In this document: positions 18,370 through 49,876 of the stretch, in pieces
Layout of the letters: each line of letters starts with the position of its first letter
How positions within the stretch are numbered: the first letter of the stretch is position 1
IMG/VR virus record: IMGVR_UViG_3300023184_000030
Span: 1 to 64,000 of that record
DNA from: a virus
DNA length: 64,000 nucleotides
Reading direction: 5' to 3' (one strand)
Program-made: the position numbers and the translations under genes
Notes under the pieces: model-generated
What the model saw: the letters and a program-made list of their open reading frames with translations, nothing else
What the model was told of the DNA's origin: nothing
The model's database searches: none

Positions 18370-19155
18370 TTACATATTAGACTGCTTCAATATGCCTTTC
18401 TCGCTATTAAAGCAATGTAACGAAGTTATGTGCATAACAAAGTAACCTGGGGTAACATCTGACCATCTTTCGGGATCTCTTTGTTTTAGGTTGTCTAACA
18501 ACCACATAAGTTTTCTGCATGCCATATAAACATCGTCTCTAAAGTGTCTTATATAATCGCATGACCTTATGTAATATGTCATATGTAACCAATTTCCTCT
18601 TCGAATAAACTGATACCCTAAGGTACATGGTACACGTTCTCCGTGAACTGTCCCGGTATCTTCGGGAAACCAAATAGGTAAAAATGCTTGTCTAGTGAAA
18701 GGTTCTCTTTCCATAAGATCCAGCACATCTCCAAAATCCCCGTATTCATATCTGATACCCTCCATTTTACTGTTAGGAACTTCAGAAGCAAATTTAGGCC
18801 AAATTCTTTCTGGGTATGTATGAGAGAATTTATCATGTCCGCCAAACTGTGCGTTATTCTTCTGAGCAAAAGGCCATCTAACGTGTGATGGTGGGGGATT
18901 TAAAGGTTGTCCGCCAACTCTCTCGTCAAAATGTTCATCTGCCCAAGGAAGATTTGGTCTGATCTCAGTTACTAACTCGTCTATGGTGTGTGGCATAAAA
19001 AACTGGAATGAATGATTCATAGTCTCCCACATATCGTCAGGAGATTCTATCCCCTGCCATTTTTCTGTTTTGACTACATAACCGTGATTAAATAATTCAT
19101 CCTTGGTCCATTTGATCGCTTCATTCGGTTTGAAAAAAGTTTTTATGCCTCCCAT
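18370..19155 (-). CDS. Divergent thymidylate synthase-fold enzyme, predicted dCMP hydroxymethylase-like
   Basis: 261 residues. RVPCTLGYQF carries the catalytic Cys. Twenty to 23 residues later comes RSCD, exactly the spacing of E. coli ThyA C146 to R166-S167-D169. The residue 31 after the Cys, where ThyA has the dUMP-selecting Asn177, is Asp (RSCDYIRHFRDDVY). T4 dCMP hydroxymethylase also has Asp there. The N-terminal part (PNLPWADEHFDERVGGQPLNPPPS) resembles the folate/phosphate region of this superfamily. The sequence is otherwise remote from ThyA. Prediction: methylenetetrahydrofolate-dependent modification of dCMP. It could instead be an inactive or differently specific relative. Confidence 0.7.
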   Translation of the reverse strand: MGGIKTFFKPNEAIKWTKDELFNHGYVVKTEKWQGIESPDDMWETMNHSFQFFMPHTIDELVTEIRPNLPWADEHFDERVGGQPLNPPPSHVRWPFAQKNNAQFGGHDKFSHTYPERIWPKFASEVPNSKMEGIRYEYGDFGDVLDLMEREPFTRQAFLPIWFPEDTGTVHGERVPCTLGYQFIRRGNWLHMTYYIRSCDYIRHFRDDVYMACRKLMWLLDNLKQRDPERWSDVTPGYFVMHITSLHCFNSEKGILKQSNM

Positions 19156-20743: not shown

Positions 20744-21043
20744 TTAGCTTAAAAGCATATCGTTGCCTTTATCCTTCGGTTTTCTTTCTTTCTTAATTAT
20801 AATTTCTTTCTTAACTGGCTTCGCTTTAGGCTTAGGCTTCTTTACCACTTTTGCTTTCACTGGTTCTTCTTTAATCGTCATTTTTTCCAATTCCTGTGTA
20901 GATAAAGGTTCTTCTAATATAACAGGATATTCTTTCTCAGTAACAACAGGTTCTGTTACTGCTGGTTCTTTTTTTACATTAAATAATGAATATCCGATGT
21001 AGGAAACTGCCAATATGATTAATAAGACGATTAAGGTTTGCAT
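20744..21043 (-). CDS. TonB-like Pro/Lys-rich membrane-anchored protein
   Basis: 99 residues: an N-terminal membrane helix (TLIVLLIILAVSYIGYSLF), an acidic stretch, then KAKVVKKPKPKAKPVKKE, a proline/lysine spacer like that of TonB and LysM-linked proteins. There is no TonB C-terminal domain. It may span the periplasm, for example as a structural part of the lysis apparatus; this is uncertain. Confidence 0.55.
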   Translation of the reverse strand: MQTLIVLLIILAVSYIGYSLFNVKKEPAVTEPVVTEKEYPVILEEPLSTQELEKMTIKEEPVKAKVVKKPKPKAKPVKKEIIIKKERKPKDKGNDMLLS

Positions 21044-21092: not shown

Positions 21093-21130
21093 TCAAAAAA
21101 AAATCCTTGTCAATTAAATGACAAGGATTT
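21093..21130 (-). terminator. Terminator of the tmRNA gene
   Basis: A 12-bp perfect stem AAATCCTTGTCA/TGACAAGGATTT with a T-run on the minus strand, beginning 5 nt after the tmRNA acceptor end. Confidence 0.9.
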
Positions 21131-21135
21131 GGGCG

Positions 21136-21598
21136 TGGACCTAGAGAGATTCGAACTCTCGTCTCCTTCAGTTAATACTAAGAATTCATTCACAGGCTTA
21201 GAAAGTTTTTTATAAACTTACAAACTAATCTGGTTTATGACACCAGCAAACATTTTGCTGTCTTTTAGTGACTTACAGCGTCAGTCAGAGAACTTATACT
21301 AACAGCGATCTTAAGGGTATTGATATTATCTCAGGGTTACTGATCATAAGCTCTACTTTTTTGGTACTGTTAACCCTTTTTCCCAACGTCACATTTTTTT
21401 AAACGGAGTAAGTGAGACTCCGGAGGTTATGCAGCGTAAGCGTACTCAACCTCAGCTACAGGTGCACCAAACATGTTGATAACGTCCCAAACTGATTTTT
21501 TGCCATTTATAGCGTTATATAGGTTATTAAAGTGTTTCCAATACTAACACTGCCTGCATTCAAAGAACTACGCCTGCGGATCAATTCCGGTTAGGCCC
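21136..21598 (-). ncRNA. ssrA: tmRNA (transfer-messenger RNA)
   Basis: Rescue RNA for stalled ribosomes. The 5' end GGGCCTA pairs over 7 bp with TAGGTCC near the 3' end, giving the G3-U70 wobble required by alanyl-tRNA synthetase. The T arm is GAGAG-TTCGAAT-CTCTC. The discriminator A at 21136 is followed by CGC, so the CCA end is not encoded. The tag frame (21456 to 21427) reads AEVEYAYAA then TAA, with GTA before the GCT resume codon. A strong terminator follows. At 463 nt it is longer than usual (about 350-400). No SmpB gene is seen in the window, so host SmpB would be needed. Confidence 0.92.
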
Positions 21599-21618
21599 AT
21601 TTATTATGTATCTATAGA

Positions 21619-22554
21619 TCAGGGTAAATTATTTGTTTCGATCCCATATAATTCTCTGTTCTTAATGACACATTCTATTATATGATCTTTCAAATTTAAT
21701 CTTGATGATATCAGATTAGCGAATAGGGACTGTTCTTCCTCTTCTATATTAAATATTCTTTTCTTGAATCCCCATACATGGAGAAATCCCTTCTCGCTTA
21801 TTTCGTCTATATCTGAATCCTCAAAGTAGCATTTGGTTTTTCTTAGTTTATCCTCCGGCTGGTATATTCCGCTTATGAGAGAAGAAACCTTAAGCTCCTT
21901 TTCTTTACAGAACTCATAAAGGAATCTCTGCTCAGCTAGCAATATGTAACCTAGCTCAAATGCTGGATTTATTTTGTCCGTACCGTTAACAAAATTCAAG
22001 GCCTCTGTAGCATATTCTTTTGCAATTTGGATGTCTCTAAAGTAAAGTAAACTGGTGTTATAAGCTTTTTTATCCCAGCTAAATCCGTATCTGCTTGTAA
22101 AATAGCCCCTTGTATCTATGAATTCCGGATCTGGATAGTGTATAAGATCGTGGTCCAATATTGCTTCCGCATGTGCACAGAAAACATCGCAATCTGAAAA
22201 ATCAATCTCAAATCTAACTTCGGCGTCAAGATCAACCATGAGGAAATTTTCTTCGATGTCATTTATCGCTATAAATTTTCCAGCTGCCCAAAATATTGAC
22301 GGGTCAAATTCTGGATTGATTGGTAGTATAGGTCTTATCTCATCAAAGCATCTGTCCAGTCCAACCTCCTTGTAATATTCATGAATTTCGGGATCACAAT
22401 ATAAGACAGGGCTTAGATTATTATATTCCTTGGCGAAATGTGTTGATCTCACAATCATAGCAATCTCCCAAGGCTTTTTAAATTTGCTAATCGCTCCCCT
22501 TTTTTTTCTTGGCATAAACCAATCAACATATATGGCTTTAGTCGGTCTCATCAA
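21619..22554 (-). CDS. DUF6734-like glycosyltransferase
   Basis: 311 residues, starting MRPTKAIYVDWFM. A GT-A-like core is suggested by FWAAGKFIAINDIEENFLMVDLDAEVRF with a D-x-D motif (LDAEV context MVDLDAE), and a terminal FLHVWGFKKR. This matches the Bacteroidetes family DUF6734, predicted as glycosyltransferase. Substrate unknown. Together with three other glycosyltransferases it makes this region sugar-rich. Confidence 0.65.
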   Translation of the reverse strand: MMRPTKAIYVDWFMPRKKRGAISKFKKPWEIAMIVRSTHFAKEYNNLSPVLYCDPEIHEYYKEVGLDRCFDEIRPILPINPEFDPSIFWAAGKFIAINDIEENFLMVDLDAEVRFEIDFSDCDVFCAHAEAILDHDLIHYPDPEFIDTRGYFTSRYGFSWDKKAYNTSLLYFRDIQIAKEYATEALNFVNGTDKINPAFELGYILLAEQRFLYEFCKEKELKVSSLISGIYQPEDKLRKTKCYFEDSDIDEISEKGFLHVWGFKKRIFNIEEEEQSLFANLISSRLNLKDHIIECVIKNRELYGIETNNLP

Positions 22555-23890: not shown

Positions 23891-24208
23891 TTAATACTGG
23901 AATCTTTGAACCTGATCTATACCGTTATAATTAATCTCCGGATTAGGTGCCATTATAACAGAAATACCATCTGATAAATCATATATGCTCTCGATGTAGC
24001 TTTGAACCTCATCTTTCTTTGACTTATCTATACCCAGCTGATTTAATGCATCTGTAGTAATTTGATCAACCGAATCCATAAAGTTTCCGCTATCATGAAA
24101 GTTGAAGTATTTCTCATATTTTTTTAGCCAGTTCCTAATCTCTGCTTGCTCTTCAGGATTAAGATCTAAGTCGTCCATGTAGTCGGAGAATTCTAGTATT
24201 TTTTTCAT
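23891..24208 (-). CDS. Tagged acidic helical protein, candidate virion protein
   Basis: 105 residues. The N-terminus MKKILEFSDYMDDLDL has the I-x-x-F-x-x-Y tag pattern, though no clean L-x-E site follows. Acidic and helical; function unknown. Divergent from the plus-strand gene at 24238, with a GATATATA element in the 29-nt gap. Confidence 0.6.
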   Translation of the reverse strand: MKKILEFSDYMDDLDLNPEEQAEIRNWLKKYEKYFNFHDSGNFMDSVDQITTDALNQLGIDKSKKDEVQSYIESIYDLSDGISVIMAPNPEINYNGIDQVQRFQY

Positions 24209-24737: not shown

Positions 24738-26198
24738 TTATTTATTTTCAAAGTAGATTCCTGCATGGGCTTCACCCTTTGCTTTACCCGGACTATATTT
24801 ATCTTCAGGCTCTTCAGTAACCACGAATGCCTTATTAGGATTTACTATTAACCCCATTCTTCTCATTAGTGTTCTATTTGCTAAGAATGGCGTGCTTTTA
24901 TCTGTTCTGTCGACAGGGGAAACTTTAACATTAGGTATTAGGCTTCCGTTAAATTCAAGGTTAATTTCTATAATAGGTCTAGTGTGTGTATCCCTTCCAA
25001 TTTCAGCATCGGAATATCCGACAATATCATTAACAAACTTCTTATCCCCAACAGTCCAAAGAAGCTTTTTACCATTCTCTTCAATTTCGTCTGCATGAAG
25101 TGTGCAAGATTTTGCTCCATTTCCAGTATCGAATTTAGCTATCATATTACCAATTCCTGGTATAGATATTTGCTCGAGATAGCCAATTTCTAAGTTAGCA
25201 TAGCTCCAATTCTCCTTATCTAAAATGTAATCAAGCACATCGTTAACAATAGGTTTACCTATAGCCTTAGAAATACCCTCTGTTCCCGGAGATGAATTAA
25301 CCTCTAAAATATAAGGTTTCTTAGTTTTCTTATCTATCATGATATCTACCCCACACCAGTGACATCCAACTGCGTTAGCTGCTTTGCAAGCTATTTCTAC
25401 TAAATCCTCTGGGATTTCGTAATTTGATACAGATCCACCTAAAGAATAGTTAGTTCTAAAGTCTTTATCCACCGCCTCTCTTTTCATAGATCCTAAGATA
25501 ATACAGTTGTCTGAAGATGGTTTGATTGGATCGAAGTTCTTAATTATAACCTGAATTCTAAGGTCAAAGTTTGAATCAATTTTTTCCTGAACCAATATCT
25601 CACTGTTCTCATCAAGTTTTCTTATCGTTTGATAGACAGACTTTAAAGATGCGTAAGAATCCACAATAGAAACTCCAATGCCTTGTGTTCCCGATAAAAG
25701 CTTCATGATAATAGGAAATTTACCTCCTATCTTTTCTAATGCAGAATCGAGAAATTCCTCATTCGGTACTAAAGCATATTTAGGAACGGGTAATCCCGCT
25801 TCCTCCATGTATTGTGAAGTTATGTACTTGTTTTCGCAAACCTCGATGGATTCCAGTGTATTTACAGTGAAATATCGGTCAGCTTCTAATTGTGTCAGAA
25901 TTTGCTTAGTGTAAGAGTTTTCTATTACTCCTCTTCTTGGTATAATCACTGTTGAATTGGGATCGATTAGGATTCCCTCTTCCCCAGTTTTTAATAGGTG
26001 CCCATTATAAACTTTCTCTATTACCACCTGGTTTACATCAACCACGTAGCATTCAACACCTCTTTTTTCACATTGTTCTTCAAAAGACTTAGAGGTCTTA
26101 CTTCCCTGGGTATTCCCAGTCAGAACTATAACCTTAGTGGTTTCTCCTTTTGCTTCATTTAAAAAGGACCAAAAATCCAATACTTTACCGGCCATCAA
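24738..26198 (-). CDS. RimK-like ATP-grasp ligase fused to retropepsin-like zinc-protease domain, tagged
   Basis: 486 residues. The N-terminus MMAGKVLDFWSFLNEAKGE is a full tag with an L-N-E/A cleavage-like site. Residues about 20-320 are ATP-grasp (FPIIMKLLSGTQGIGVSIVDS; CGVDIMIDKKTKKPYILEVNSSPG), as in RimK, which adds glutamate to ribosomal protein S6. The C-terminal part (AKFDTGNGAKSCTLHADEI ... NRTLMRRMGLIVNPNKAF) matches the RimK-associated aspartyl protease-like domain. Cellular genomes often keep the two as neighbours. A GATATATA element precedes it at 26220-26227. If packaged, it could modify host proteins soon after injection. Confidence 0.85.
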   Translation of the reverse strand: MMAGKVLDFWSFLNEAKGETTKVIVLTGNTQGSKTSKSFEEQCEKRGVECYVVDVNQVVIEKVYNGHLLKTGEEGILIDPNSTVIIPRRGVIENSYTKQILTQLEADRYFTVNTLESIEVCENKYITSQYMEEAGLPVPKYALVPNEEFLDSALEKIGGKFPIIMKLLSGTQGIGVSIVDSYASLKSVYQTIRKLDENSEILVQEKIDSNFDLRIQVIIKNFDPIKPSSDNCIILGSMKREAVDKDFRTNYSLGGSVSNYEIPEDLVEIACKAANAVGCHWCGVDIMIDKKTKKPYILEVNSSPGTEGISKAIGKPIVNDVLDYILDKENWSYANLEIGYLEQISIPGIGNMIAKFDTGNGAKSCTLHADEIEENGKKLLWTVGDKKFVNDIVGYSDAEIGRDTHTRPIIEINLEFNGSLIPNVKVSPVDRTDKSTPFLANRTLMRRMGLIVNPNKAFVVTEEPEDKYSPGKAKGEAHAGIYFENK

Positions 26199-26667: not shown

Positions 26668-27816
26668 TTAAAATAAAGCGTTTATTAAGAATAAATTTGG
26701 GCTTATTGTATTATAGCCCATAACCTCGATGAATCTATTAATAGGGTCCAGGATCGTTTTGGTAAATTGCATGTCATGGTCTATTGGTGGTGCATATTCA
26801 TAAGGGTATGTTCCCTGTGCATAAGCAAAAACGTTATTGTCCATTATGGACTTAGTCTTAACAAAATAATAATTTATTTTCTCACCACTTCTAATCAAAG
26901 GGTATTTGTCTTTATATTTTGATCTGTTTAGCAAAAGATTATGATAAGCTGCTGCTCTAACTTGAATAGGACATCCTTTTGTGACTTCTAAGGCACTTAC
27001 ATCATTAAGGATATACTTTTCATAGTTATTAATTGCTATTGCAGCAGAGATGTTCCTAGGCTCCTGTATTTTAAAGTCTCTCTTAATATCCTTAAGCTCC
27101 TTTACAAATTCTCTTATATCGAATGCACGGCCTTTAGCAAAGATGAATTTCGTTAGATAAATTAGTTTCTCCCTAACAAAAGGCGGGGTTCCGCCTTTGA
27201 TCATTTCCACCCCTACCGTCTTTATTTGTGAGAGCGGATCCATATGTAGACCATCTGAATAAACTAGATTAGTAACATACTTCTTCTTTCCCAAGAATAT
27301 ACCATTTATTGCCAGGTTCTCCATCTCGAAATCCTGGTAATTTATCGTACCCCATTTTTTGGAATATTTCTCGAAGCATGTCTTAAGATATTCAGCTAAT
27401 CTAAATTCATTAATTTTTAATATCAGATCCTTGGGATCACCTTTCCAATCGCAAGAATCTACAACCTCCTGGAAGGTAACGTAGTTAGAATCAGTATCCC
27501 CATAAACAACTAGAGGCTTAACCACTCTTTTAACTGTGGTAACACCTAGCTTTTCGTGAAGATCCTTATCGGAGTGCCAGAATTCATGGAAATATTTATG
27601 TAATACTTTCTCTGAATATTTGATCAAATCCTGACCCTGTAGTGTAACTGCCTCTGCAACATCAGGATTAAAGCAAACAAACCAGTTATTTCCAATCGCT
27701 CCATAGATGGAGTTCATTGTTAATTTTACTGCTTGCTCCTCGTTCTTTAACTCGTTCTTTAGAGAGGTAAGTTTTTCTATTCTTTCTTCAATTTCTTTTA
27801 TTTCTTCTTGAGTCAT
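26668..27816 (-). CDS. DNA polymerase (family B, gp43-like), C-terminal half
   Basis: 382 residues with motif B KLTMNSIYGAIGN, motif C YGDTDSNY and the GKKKYV thumb-proximal motif, but no exonuclease or motif A. Those reside in the other half at 43009-44409. The first 30 residues (EIKEIEERIEKLTSLKNELKN) are a strongly charged helix, presumably the second fingers helix. The break lies at the tip of the fingers, so the two polypeptides could assemble into one enzyme. No intein or ligation sequence is visible at either end. Confidence 0.92.
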   Translation of the reverse strand: MTQEEIKEIEERIEKLTSLKNELKNEEQAVKLTMNSIYGAIGNNWFVCFNPDVAEAVTLQGQDLIKYSEKVLHKYFHEFWHSDKDLHEKLGVTTVKRVVKPLVVYGDTDSNYVTFQEVVDSCDWKGDPKDLILKINEFRLAEYLKTCFEKYSKKWGTINYQDFEMENLAINGIFLGKKKYVTNLVYSDGLHMDPLSQIKTVGVEMIKGGTPPFVREKLIYLTKFIFAKGRAFDIREFVKELKDIKRDFKIQEPRNISAAIAINNYEKYILNDVSALEVTKGCPIQVRAAAYHNLLLNRSKYKDKYPLIRSGEKINYYFVKTKSIMDNNVFAYAQGTYPYEYAPPIDHDMQFTKTILDPINRFIEVMGYNTISPNLFLINALF

Positions 27817-31280: not shown

Positions 31281-32324
31281 TTAAAAGTGTTCGATTGCTT
31301 TCATTTGTTCTTCGGTAAGGAATTCAGGTATTTTAACATTCACCTGGACTAAGATATCACCAAATCCAAATCCATTAAATTCAGGTAATCCCTTTCCTTT
31401 TAATCTGAATATTTTACCTGGTTGCGTTCCTGGTGGAACTTTTATTCTAAAGCTAGATCCGGTTAAGTTGGGGAAATCCATTTCGGTACCTAGACAAATC
31501 TCTCTAAATGAAATATATTTCTCGCTTACTAGATTTACTCCATCTCTACGATAAACCGGATGTGCATATTCTTCTATTGTTATAACAAGATCTCCCGGAT
31601 TTGAAGGTGCCTTTGCCCAATCCCCTTTAGCAGCCAAAACATAAGAAACACCAGCTATAGATCCTTTAGGTATATTGAAATCAACCTCTTCATCTTTCCT
31701 GACCGTGCCTGTTCCCGAGCAATCATTGCAAGGCTTTCTCGGTTTAGTTCCGTGCCCTCCGCAAGATCTACATGTTTCCTGTGTGACCATTTCTCCAAAT
31801 TGGTAGTGAACAGTTTTATTAACTCGTCCTATTCCTCCACAGTTAGAACAATTTACAACATCAGCATTCTCTGCACCTGTACCTTTACATGGCTCACAGT
31901 GGACTCTCCTATTAAGTTTAACCTTCTTATTCGTCCCCGTCATCATTTCTTCTAATGTTAAAGCTACGATAGTGTTTATATTCCTACCCTTGTTTATCAT
32001 TGGCTCTTGAGATCTTTTACTCTGGCCATTGAAAAACGATGAGAAGTCTCCGCTTTGAAATGGATTTGTTCCGTTCCAGTATTGTTCAAATGGATTACCA
32101 CCACCCGCTCCAGAGAAGGGACTTGGGTTATCATATTTTGATTTTTTGTTTGGGTCAGATAAATTATCATAAGCCTCCGAAACCTCTTTAAATTTTTTCT
32201 CCGCTTCAGGATCATTTCCTGTTTTGTCCGGATGATATTTTATAGCTAGCTTTCGGTAAGCCTTTTTTATCTCTTCTGGTGAAGCTCCTCTAGGAACCCC
32301 TAATATTTGATAGTAATCTTTCAT
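31281..32324 (-). CDS. dnaJ: DnaJ (Hsp40) chaperone
   Basis: 347 residues. J domain with HPD ([10 protein letters not shown]), Gly/Phe region (about 75-110), four CxxCxGxG-like zinc repeats ([32 protein letters not shown]) and both client-binding domains: a complete type I DnaJ. Co-chaperone for the DnaK at 47889-49772. Phage-encoded DnaJ is uncommon; it may help assemble or fold virion or replication proteins. Confidence 0.96.
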
Positions 32325-43008: not shown

Positions 43009-44409
43009 TTATGTTTTGCTGATCTTTTTTTTCAGCTGATCGATTTCATATTCTAACTCTAACATTCGGTCCTTGGTTTTACGACGTTTACTATACAAAT
43101 CCTTAATAATTATTTTAAGGATAGGGTCTTCTTCGTCGGAGGCAAAGCATGCACCGGATGCGGTTCTAATCCAATCATCCTTGGGATTTACCGGATTTTT
43201 ACCTCTATATGCCTCTGGTGAGATGTTCCATTGAACCATTGTATTTGGATATAGCGATGCAAAGTCATAGCATGCTACCCATTCATGTAATCCCTTTATT
43301 GGCTCTTTAACATATCCACCAGCAAATTTTACATGTACTTCCTCTCTATTCTCTACAACAAATAACTGTTTGCGGTCTAAGAATTTTCTAAGCATCAATA
43401 CTTCGGTTGACCAAACTGGGGAAAGACATCGATTTATCTCCACCCCACTAATCATAGCGATTTTAAAGAAAGTCTGCATGGTCTTTAACTTCTGGTCAAT
43501 GTAATGTACTAAAGCACAGTCAACTACGTTATAGTAAATAAAGTCCTCAAAGTTTGATTGGTACAGGTCTCGAAGTGTTCCGTTATATTCTATCTTTTTG
43601 AGCCCTATTGCTTTGTCCGCTACGTAATCCAATCTATTACTTTCTTTGATCTTAATAACTCGGTCCCACTTTTTGTAGATTTCCAAGTAGTCAAACATTA
43701 ATAAATGAACAGGCAGCTGTTGTTTTCCGATAAGGTATCCTCCGGGAGAAATGATCTTCGGATCAATACCAAGCTTCTTTGCTCTATTGATAAGATAAGG
43801 CCAGTCATACCCTAGCCAGTTCCATCCTGTCATGACTGGCATTTTCGGACCAAGTTCTTTAAAGAACGTGTACATCATATCATATTCAGTCTCGAACTGT
43901 TTATATTTAAAGGACCATTCATCTCCAAACTTCTTGAAATATTCATTGGTCTTCTTGTAAATATTAGCTTGTTGCTCTGGCGTCAATGGATCTAGTCCTA
44001 AAACGATCAATTTACATTTATCTGTCGCAATACCTATTGATATAACACGATTTTTAGCATTCTCTGTGTCTAGAGCTGCTGCCATATCTTCCGTGATCTC
44101 AACCTCAATATCGACGAAGTATTTCTTAGGGTTTTGGTATACCCAAAGTGGAGCTGTTAATTCAGGATCTGCTTCAATTAAGATCTGAGCCATCCTATAT
44201 TTGTCGTATTTTTGAGTTTTTAGTTTCTTTACTGAATCACCTGTCCAGGTTTTCCATTCTTTATCCTTAGAGGAATTGCTGGGGCTGCACTTTTCCCAAA
44301 CGAATCTTTCCGACTCTGGAATGGGCACATCTAAAAAAGCTAAGTCGCCTTCTTCTGTGAAATGTGATACTTTAAGATATTCCCCTCTGTTCTCAATGTC
44401 TACGATCAT
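43009..44409 (-). CDS. DNA polymerase (family B, gp43-like), N-terminal half
   Basis: 466 residues. Exonuclease motifs KYFVDIEVEI, MTGWNWLGYDWPYL and YYNVVDCALVHYID, then polymerase motif A CYDFASLYPNTMVQWNISPE. It ends in a charged helix (YSKRRKTKDRMLELEYEIDQLKKK), the first fingers helix. Motifs B and C are in the separate gene 26668-27816. Confidence 0.93.
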   Translation of the reverse strand: MIVDIENRGEYLKVSHFTEEGDLAFLDVPIPESERFVWEKCSPSNSSKDKEWKTWTGDSVKKLKTQKYDKYRMAQILIEADPELTAPLWVYQNPKKYFVDIEVEITEDMAAALDTENAKNRVISIGIATDKCKLIVLGLDPLTPEQQANIYKKTNEYFKKFGDEWSFKYKQFETEYDMMYTFFKELGPKMPVMTGWNWLGYDWPYLINRAKKLGIDPKIISPGGYLIGKQQLPVHLLMFDYLEIYKKWDRVIKIKESNRLDYVADKAIGLKKIEYNGTLRDLYQSNFEDFIYYNVVDCALVHYIDQKLKTMQTFFKIAMISGVEINRCLSPVWSTEVLMLRKFLDRKQLFVVENREEVHVKFAGGYVKEPIKGLHEWVACYDFASLYPNTMVQWNISPEAYRGKNPVNPKDDWIRTASGACFASDEEDPILKIIIKDLYSKRRKTKDRMLELEYEIDQLKKKISKT

Positions 44410-47888: not shown

Positions 47889-49772
47889 TTACTTGATTTC
47901 TTCGTACTCTACATCTTGTAGATCTTCCGCACTATCGGAGGTTTGTTCAGAAGGTGCTTCAGTTGCTTGAGCTTGCTGATCTGCTGCGTATACAGCAGAA
48001 GCTATCTCATTCATCTTATCTGAAAGGGCCTTCATTGTAGATTCGATAGCATCTAAATCGTCACTGTCCATGATTTTTCTTAATTCTTCTATTTTATCAG
48101 AAATCTCTTGTTTATCCGAATCACTTACTTTGTCTCCAAAGTCGCTAATCGCTTTTTCCATTTGGAAACACATAGAAGAAGCCTCATTAGAAAGCTGTGA
48201 TTTTCTTAGCCTCACTTTATCTGCCTCTGCATTTGCTTCAGCATCATTTTTCATTTTTTCGATTTCTTCGTCGGTTAACTTAGATCCGGATTCAATTCTG
48301 ATATTTTGTACTTTACCTGTTCCCTGGTCTTTAGCAGAAACCTTGATGATACCGTTAGCATCAATATCAAATGTAACCTCGATCTTAGGAATACCTCTCA
48401 TTGATGGTGGGATATCGGTTAATTGAAATCTTCCAAGTGATCTATTATCGATAGCCATTGCTCTTTCCCCTTGTAATACGTGGATTTCCACTGCTGGCTG
48501 ATTATCTGCAGCGGTAGAAAATACTTCACTCTTTGTTACGGGAATAGTAGTATTGGATTCTATCAATTTGGTAAATACACCACCTACTGTTTCGATACCT
48601 AATGAAAGAGGGGTAACGTCTAATAAAAGAACGTCCTTAATATCACCAGCTAAAACACCTCCTTGAATAGCAGCACCAATAGCTACCACCTCATCGGGAT
48701 TAACCCCCTTAGAAGGTTTTTTACCAAAAAGTTTTTCAACCTCTTCTTGTACCTTAGGTATTCTTGTAGATCCACCTACTAGGATAACCTCATCAACTTG
48801 AGCAGCTGTTAATCCCGCATCTTTCAGTGCTTTCTTACAAGGTCCTAGAGTTCTTTTAATTAGGTCCTCGCACATAGACTCAAATTGAGCTCTAGATAAT
48901 TTTTTTACAAAGTGCTTAGGTCCGTTTGAATCCGCACTTAAATAAGGAAGATTAATTTCCGTCTCGGTAGAAGCAGAAAGTTCAACTTTTGCTTTCTCTG
49001 CGCCTTCTCTAATTCTTTGATAAGCCATAGGATCTTTAGAAGCATCCACACCAGTTTCATCTTTAAATGCAGCAACTACCCAATCAATAATCATCTCATC
49101 AAAGTTGTCACCACCTAAGTGGGTATCGCCGTTTGTAGAAAGAACCTCAAATACTCCAGATCCTATTTCCAGGATCGAAACGTCAAATGTACCACCACCT
49201 AAGTCATATACTGCAACCTTAAGATCTTTATCCCCTTTATCCAAGCCATAAGCTAAAGCAGCTGCTGTTGGCTCGTTAATAATTCTTAATACTTCTAAAC
49301 CTGCAATCTCACCTGCTTCTTTTGTCGCCTGTCTTTGACTATCATTAAAATATGCAGGTACAGTGATGACTGCTTGTTTAATTTCTTCACCCAAATAATC
49401 CTCTGCTGTTTTTCTTAGATTCTGTAGAACCATAGCTGAAATCTCTTGCGGAACGTATTCCTTTCCGTTTGCTTCCACAATTACTTTTCCTTTAGAGTCC
49501 TTAACTTTATAAGGCATCTTCTTTGCCTCATTTTTAATCTCACTGTACTGTGATCCGATAAATCTCTTTACTGAATAAACAGTGTTCTCGGGATTAGTAA
49601 CCGCTTGTCTCTTTGCAGAGTCTCCGATTCTAATGTCACCGTCTTTAAAAGAAACCACACTAGGTGTAGTTCTTTTCCCCTCCGAGTTAACAATAACTAC
49701 GGGTGTGCTTCCTTCAATTACAGAAACACATGAATTTGTTGTTCCTAGGTCAATACCAATTACTTTTGCCAT
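47889..49772 (-). CDS. dnaK: DnaK (Hsp70) chaperone
   Basis: 627 residues from ATG 49772 ([21 protein letters not shown]); the longer frame to 49853 has a leader unlike any DnaK. Complete nucleotide-binding domain ([23 protein letters not shown]), linker [10 protein letters not shown], substrate-binding domain and EEIK tail (VEYEEIK instead of the EEVD-like ending). It is as long as the bacterial protein and very rarely carried by phages. A leader of about 250 nt (49773-50022) holds twin palindromes and a terminator. Confidence 0.97.
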
Positions 49773-49876
49773 TTGTTTTAAATTTATTATTTTTAGTTGA
49801 TTTTTGAGAAAAGATTCCACTACTTGATCATATTCTCTAAAGTAAGTTATCAAAATGAGTTCCGAAAGTAATTAAA

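Follow-up and report, generated by a model that had tools for sequence, protein, structure and literature searches.

The locus at positions 21136-21598 of this DNA raises the question of whether a phage encodes a working tmRNA and, if so, whether the products of the rescued ribosomes would be handled by proteins of the phage or by those of its host. The window analyzed here, a stretch of 64,000 nucleotides, is part of a 172,849-bp IMG/VR virus record that represents a fragment of a huge T4-like phage. Comparison with related phages suggests that the locus is quite probably a phage ssrA gene that functions and has been maintained by vertical descent, through which the phage would run its own ribosome rescue and pass the tagged products on to a protease.

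The tmRNA gene, its flanking signals and its fold

A first-pass annotation, made from the letters of the window, had placed a phage-encoded tmRNA with a G3-U70 acceptor stem, a T arm and a dedicated terminator at this locus, and all of these elements were found in the sequence. A covariance search with the Rfam tmRNA model (RF00023) matched positions 21598-21133 of the minus strand with 49.3 bits (E=1.9e-16), over the gathering score of 47, and the match spanned model positions 1-374 of 374, with 466 bases set against the 374-position model. This score is barely over the cut-off; those of relatives reach 91.9. ARAGORN called no tmRNA in the window, and the Rfam scan identified the gene at 21136-21598 as the sole tmRNA in the whole 172,849-bp record. 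These coordinates (minus strand) delimit the mature RNA exactly, with a G as its first base (21598) and the discriminator A as its last encoded one (21136); the CCA end is not encoded, the sequence there being ACGC. In the Rfam alignment the 5' and 3' domains stand in the normal order, and the gene is of the one-piece and not of the two-piece, permuted form.

The gene is followed by an intrinsic terminator (21101..21130, minus strand) with a 12-bp stem and a T tract, AAATCCTTGTCA-TTTAAT-TGACAAGGATTT-TTTTTT, which lies at the identical position in sister phages. Upstream, a promoter-like stretch (21599..21639, minus strand) consists of a GAAACAAAT box followed by the A/T-rich TATAGATACATAATAAAT, and both are retained in close relatives. 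On the coding (minus) strand of the window there are 34 occurrences of the pattern GAAAC[AT]3, versus 9 on the other; this strand bias, together with the retention in close relatives, suggests that the box may belong to a phage promoter. Sites of the same pattern were also observed 41-51 bases upstream of some window genes, as a possible phage promoter element.

The product of the next gene downstream (20744..21043, minus strand) is a small protein with a membrane anchor and a tail rich in K and P, and proteins that appear similar by eye come after the tmRNA in relatives. An ORF resembling, by eye, a GIY-YIG homing endonuclease lies directly 3' of the tmRNA in loci L103, L111, L113 and L122, where it is preceded by a long palindrome. 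Similar palindromes without a full gene of this kind follow the tmRNA in L109, L112 and L120. The GIY-YIG-like ORF is absent from the window.

The acceptor stem is formed by GGGCCTA (21592..21598) and TAGGTCC (21137..21143), both on the minus strand, the latter carrying U70 of the G3-U70 pair. All 7/7 pairs form, and 4/7 change on both sides in relatives. The T arm, GAGAG-TTCGAAT-CTCTC (21144..21160, minus strand), has 5/5 pairs, four of which covary. Amongst the tabulated genes, 7/7 pairs in P1, 5/5 pairs in the T stem and the G3-U70 pair were found in 23/23. Folding of the pseudoknots, on which the first-pass reading depended, was also confirmed for PK1 and PK2, with covariation across 15 sequences. 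PK1 (21518..21551, minus strand) combines AGTGTT/AACACT with TATTGG/CCTATA (one mismatch); both stems were 100% paired (n=15 sequences) and 5/11 pairs showed double-sided changes. Just after the tag stop, PK2 (21389..21422, minus strand) combines CGGAGT/ACTCCG with TCAC/GTGA; its second stem was 100% paired (n=15) with changes on both sides in 4/4 pairs, and its first stem was 78.6% paired.

The covariation counts come from structures written down for 15 phage tmRNAs, comprising P1, P2, PK1, PK2, the 3' hairpin and the T arm. Overall, standard pairs occupied 95.1% of cells versus 81.4% in shuffles, and double-change cells numbered 98, versus 25.6 in shuffles and no more than 23 with slid partners, with changes on both sides in 28/53 pairs. 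One 3' hairpin covaries; PK3 and PK4 were not made out, because the stretch between PK2 and this hairpin is too variable.

Phage lineage and the proteolysis tag

Relatives were collected by searches with the thymidylate synthase gene (18370-19155), which gave 49 IMG/VR loci, and with an ATP-grasp gene (24738-26198), which gave 36; the related IMG/VR contigs have sizes up to 434 kb. Among the T4-like genes of the window are those for ribonucleotide reductase, a gp32-like protein and a B-family DNA polymerase, which is split into two ORFs (43009-44409 and 26668-27816) about 15 kb apart. The DnaK of the window (654 aa; 47889..49853, minus strand; Pfam HSP70, E=1.8e-256) is 60% identical to the DnaK of LR745206 and LR756502, phages of 634-642 kb. 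In PMC7162821, these largest phages are assigned predicted Bacteroidetes hosts, and PMC9723777 places the marine Mar_Mega_1 (656 kb, one tmRNA) as their sister. Based on the DnaK kinship and on these host predictions, the record probably represents part of a megaphage with a Bacteroidetes host. No tRNA genes were found in any part of the 172,849-bp fragment.

A full-length tmRNA match was present in 31/49 related records, 29 of them above the Rfam cut-off, a count that leaves out short T-arm matches that are probably tRNAs. In the nearer relatives, the thymidylate synthase gene used for the search lies no farther than about 1-4 kb from the tmRNA. This tmRNA lineage has a 16-base signature, CTAAGCCTGTGAAYGA, which was detected in 111 IMG/VR stretches. 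One contig of the phage lineage (L124, JAEORV010000306.1), whose thymidylate synthase is 65% identical, has been binned in a Lokiarchaeota MAG, probably through a binning error.

A separate observation concerns the many unrelated proteins that start with M-K-x-I/L-x-x-F/Y-x-x-F/W/Y...(L/I)xE, for example MKKILEFSDYMDD, KVLDFWSFLNEAK, MKHIKLFENYFES, MENLLEYQIWLNEG and MQNIHSYKDFINEA, located in the window (23891-24208 and 24738-26198) and in L135, L136 and L137. These starts resemble MKTYQEFIAE, the capsid-targeting sequence of T4, with a cleavage site like that of a prohead protease, and the proteins that carry them, a large set, are possibly packaged or injected.

The tag reading frame (21427..21504, minus strand) runs from the Rfam-aligned resume codon, GGC at 21502-21504, through 25 open codons ending in GCA to a TAA stop, and encodes GKKSVWDVINMFGAPVAEVEYAYAA. 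With 25 residues this tag has about twice the usual length. AEVEYAYAA, which the first-pass annotation had taken for the whole tag, corresponds to the last 9 of these 25 residues and was rejected as incomplete, the frame running from the GGC resume codon. In relatives the frame recurs with its start and its stop at the same position (e.g., GKKSVWDAINSFGTPVTEVEYAYAA, GKTNVWDAINAFGAPVAEVEYAVAA and GKNNVWETINAFGTPVAKTELAIAA), and from this recurrence we conclude that the entire frame is in use. Additionally, amongst 116 pairs of similar tags, pN/pS was 0.55 in frame versus 0.88 and 1.10 in the shifted frames; purifying selection thus acts on the tag in its own frame.

A set of 53 unique tags was compiled, with 13-33 residues and a median of 25; four are short (13-14 aa). 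Tag types include GK.NVWDAIN.FG.PV..VE.A.AA, GENPFF.LAGLG...EVALAA, DEKSTFTFEDAMAFVGAEYAVAA and ANVYNSEDIMSIPTS...EEVELAVAA. The -AA end, which is the usual host-readable end, closes 38/53 tags. The suggestion that AYAA is a special tag end did not hold, as the residue before AA varies and the final four residues in relatives are AVAA, AIAA, ALAA, AYAA, LLAA or TVAA.

The other 15/53 tags lack the terminal -AA. They include an LR745206-like group with a tag type, GKTNEVASREDLVAALQNNMLKAEELSLV, from which the final -AA is absent, and most of these tags retain an internal block; their observed ends are ...ELSLV, ...LATV and ...ELELA. The tmRNA of LR745206 itself (L002:2712-3093) is not reported by Rfam and is divergent, with a tag ending in -ATV and an odd T loop. 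Members of this sub-lineage are L002 (LR745206.1), L146, L161, L167, L172, L179, L184, L185 and L187, as well as L194, L195, L208, L209 and L216-L218. The T loops of most members lack TTCGA (GGCAGTA, GTCAGTG); L209 and L216 have TTCGTCA.

The members of each tag type share conserved internal blocks. This conservation, in concert with the retention of the block in most tags without -AA, makes it possible, if tentatively so, that the long tag is more than a C-terminal degron and serves as an address specific to the phage, whose internal element (VWDAIN.FG; in other sub-lineages FEDAMSF, SEDIMSI, LDVMNI or REDLVAAL) would be read by a phage factor such as ClpC or an adaptor. The ssrA tags of Mollicutes, which are long, carry additional recognition elements and are known to be read by Lon, would be a precedent; the phage lineage differs from them in that no Lon was found in 16 phage records and most phage tags retain the -AA end. 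The same 16 records held no SspB homologue, so that both Lon and SspB were rejected as phage partners, and this absence, like the four short tags, speaks against an address. The blocks VWDAIN, FEDAMSF, SEDIMSI, LDVMNI and REDLVAAL look alike across types, a likeness spotted after the fact, and the cross-type pattern, chosen after looking, matches 5-25% of shuffled tags, which counts against a shared element. A motif common to all tag types is suggestive only. A further step, in which the block and not (or not only) the -AA end would be read by the phage ClpC-ClpP or a phage adaptor as a private degradation code, with the phage picking the proteolytic machine and the host-readable -AA dropped in one sub-lineage, is a similarly tentative possibility.

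Candidate partner proteins and their source

Within the 172,849-bp fragment no SmpB, ClpP or ClpC-type unfoldase was found, and SmpB was accordingly set aside as a component of the window's own record. The sister phage G033 (348,582 bp), with DNA 81-92% identical (roughly 88%) to the window's record over shared stretches and with the same gene order, encodes all three beyond the end of the fragment. Its SmpB and ClpP genes lie ~76-78 kb from the tmRNA, on the flank that falls outside the window's record, and by comparison with this sister the phage studied here would carry the three proteins as well. SmpB is encoded in 14/49 related records; ClpP was found in 13/16 records and a Clp ATPase in 5/16. 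LR745206 has SmpB, two ClpP and a Clp ATPase besides its tmRNA. The ClpP and SmpB reading frames have a 1-base overlap in G003 and are 6 bp apart in G016; a single gene separates them in G033.

The phage SmpB is full length, including the C-terminal tail, and the ClpP of G033, aligned with solved ClpP, retains the motifs around the catalytic residues Ser (GMAASMG), His (MLHQ) and Asp (TRDFWLSA). The best PDB match of the Clp ATPase is ClpC. This match begins at residue 155, and the N domain is therefore absent; near the ClpP-binding loop of ClpC, the ATPase has, by eye, GMGF where ClpC has AGFG. The ClpC-type ATPase is a putative partner of ClpP.

These proteins strengthen an earlier idea that the phage controls protein quality, which had been built on the tmRNA together with DnaK and DnaJ. 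Both chaperone genes are real according to Pfam, the DnaJ (31281..32324, minus strand) having J, zinc-finger and C-terminal domains, but nothing links them specifically to the tmRNA.

Exclusive reliance of the tmRNA on SmpB and on ClpXP or Lon of the host, the phage merely raising the dosage and its ClpP and ClpC serving, e.g., head maturation or stress, is unlikely. It would agree with the gene content of the window's fragment, with the host-readable ends of most tags and with two large relatives (the fragments G026 and G038) in which a tmRNA is present and neither SmpB nor ClpP was seen. It fits poorly with the back-to-back SmpB and ClpP genes of close relatives and the complete set in G033, and a full-length phage SmpB would be redundant.

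Much less probable still is a decoy, an RNA that would titrate out SmpB or inhibit trans-translation in the host, the role suggested for the tmRNA of mycobacteriophage DS6A, which has little beyond the tRNA-like domain; such a molecule inhibits tmRNA (PMC4131195). A decoy would not keep a complete mRNA-like domain, a selected tag frame and compensated pseudoknots, and this phage lineage also encodes SmpB. Although ssrA is a common integration site and known as a prophage attachment site (discussed in PMC9004378), a relic of integration or transduction, with a host ssrA acquired, is contradicted by the full length, the whole-lineage presence, the conserved neighbourhood, the covariation and the gene's own promoter-like box and terminator, and we consider it extremely improbable.

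Proposed function and relation to known tmRNAs

Under the preferred reading, that of a functional phage ssrA, the phage would transcribe the tmRNA from its own unit during infection, and the host alanyl-tRNA synthetase would charge it via the G3-U70 pair. Phage or host SmpB would then bring the charged RNA to ribosomes that have stalled on messages which are broken or lack a stop codon. Translation would restart at the GGC codon, adding (A)GKKSVWDVINMFGAPVAEVEYAYAA, and the tagged fragment would be freed and degraded, most likely by the phage ClpC-ClpP or by host Clp proteases. The gain would probably be that ribosomes are kept free and amino acids recycled in a long infection while host messages break.

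The gene shares with the one-piece tmRNA of RF00023 the G3-U70 acceptor stem, the T arm, the lack of an anticodon arm, and PK1 before and PK2 after the tag frame with its stop; it differs in the 25-codon tag with a conserved internal block and in the CCA that is not encoded. Encoding a tmRNA in a phage had been called rare in the first-pass annotation, a statement that needs qualifying, as tmRNA was already found in 402/18,146 phage genomes in 2021 (2.3% as the paper states; PMC9004378). Methylophage Melnitz and the pelagimyophages (PMC9004378) are, likewise, T4-like phages with a complete tmRNA, but the Melnitz gene is two-piece and under a glutamine riboswitch, whereas that of the window is one-piece and has a promoter-like box and a terminator of its own. 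Phage-encoded ssrA also occurs in the mycobacteriophage Bxz1/Catera group and in Bacillus phage G (PMC4131195), where phages and hosts differ from those considered here.

The Bacteroidetes megaphages LR745206, LR756502 and Mar_Mega_1 (PMC7162821, PMC9723777) are also of a T4-like lineage with tmRNA, and tmRNA together with SmpB is reported in huge phages in PMC7162821. As both phage tmRNAs and their occurrence with SmpB have been published, the category is known. Tag sequences, the ClpP-SmpB pair and the tmRNA lineage are not described in the consulted passages of PMC7162821 (Al-Shayeb et al. 2020) and PMC9723777. A literature search, largely confined to the main text of open-access papers, yielded no description of long conserved tags, abutting ClpP-SmpB genes or tags lacking -AA, and a search for Bacteroidetes tag strings gave nothing.

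Phage tmRNAs are usually listed as curiosities. As ARAGORN misses the gene of the window and Rfam misses the LR745206-like form, they may be under-counted. A single phage lineage here combines the tmRNA with the protein that binds it and with a protease and its unfoldase, and its tags, besides being long, are conserved and diversified. The phage tags provide a ready set of candidate degrons, and together these observations raise the testable question of whether such phages may have their own route from the stalled ribosome to the protease, and whether it could exclude that of the host.
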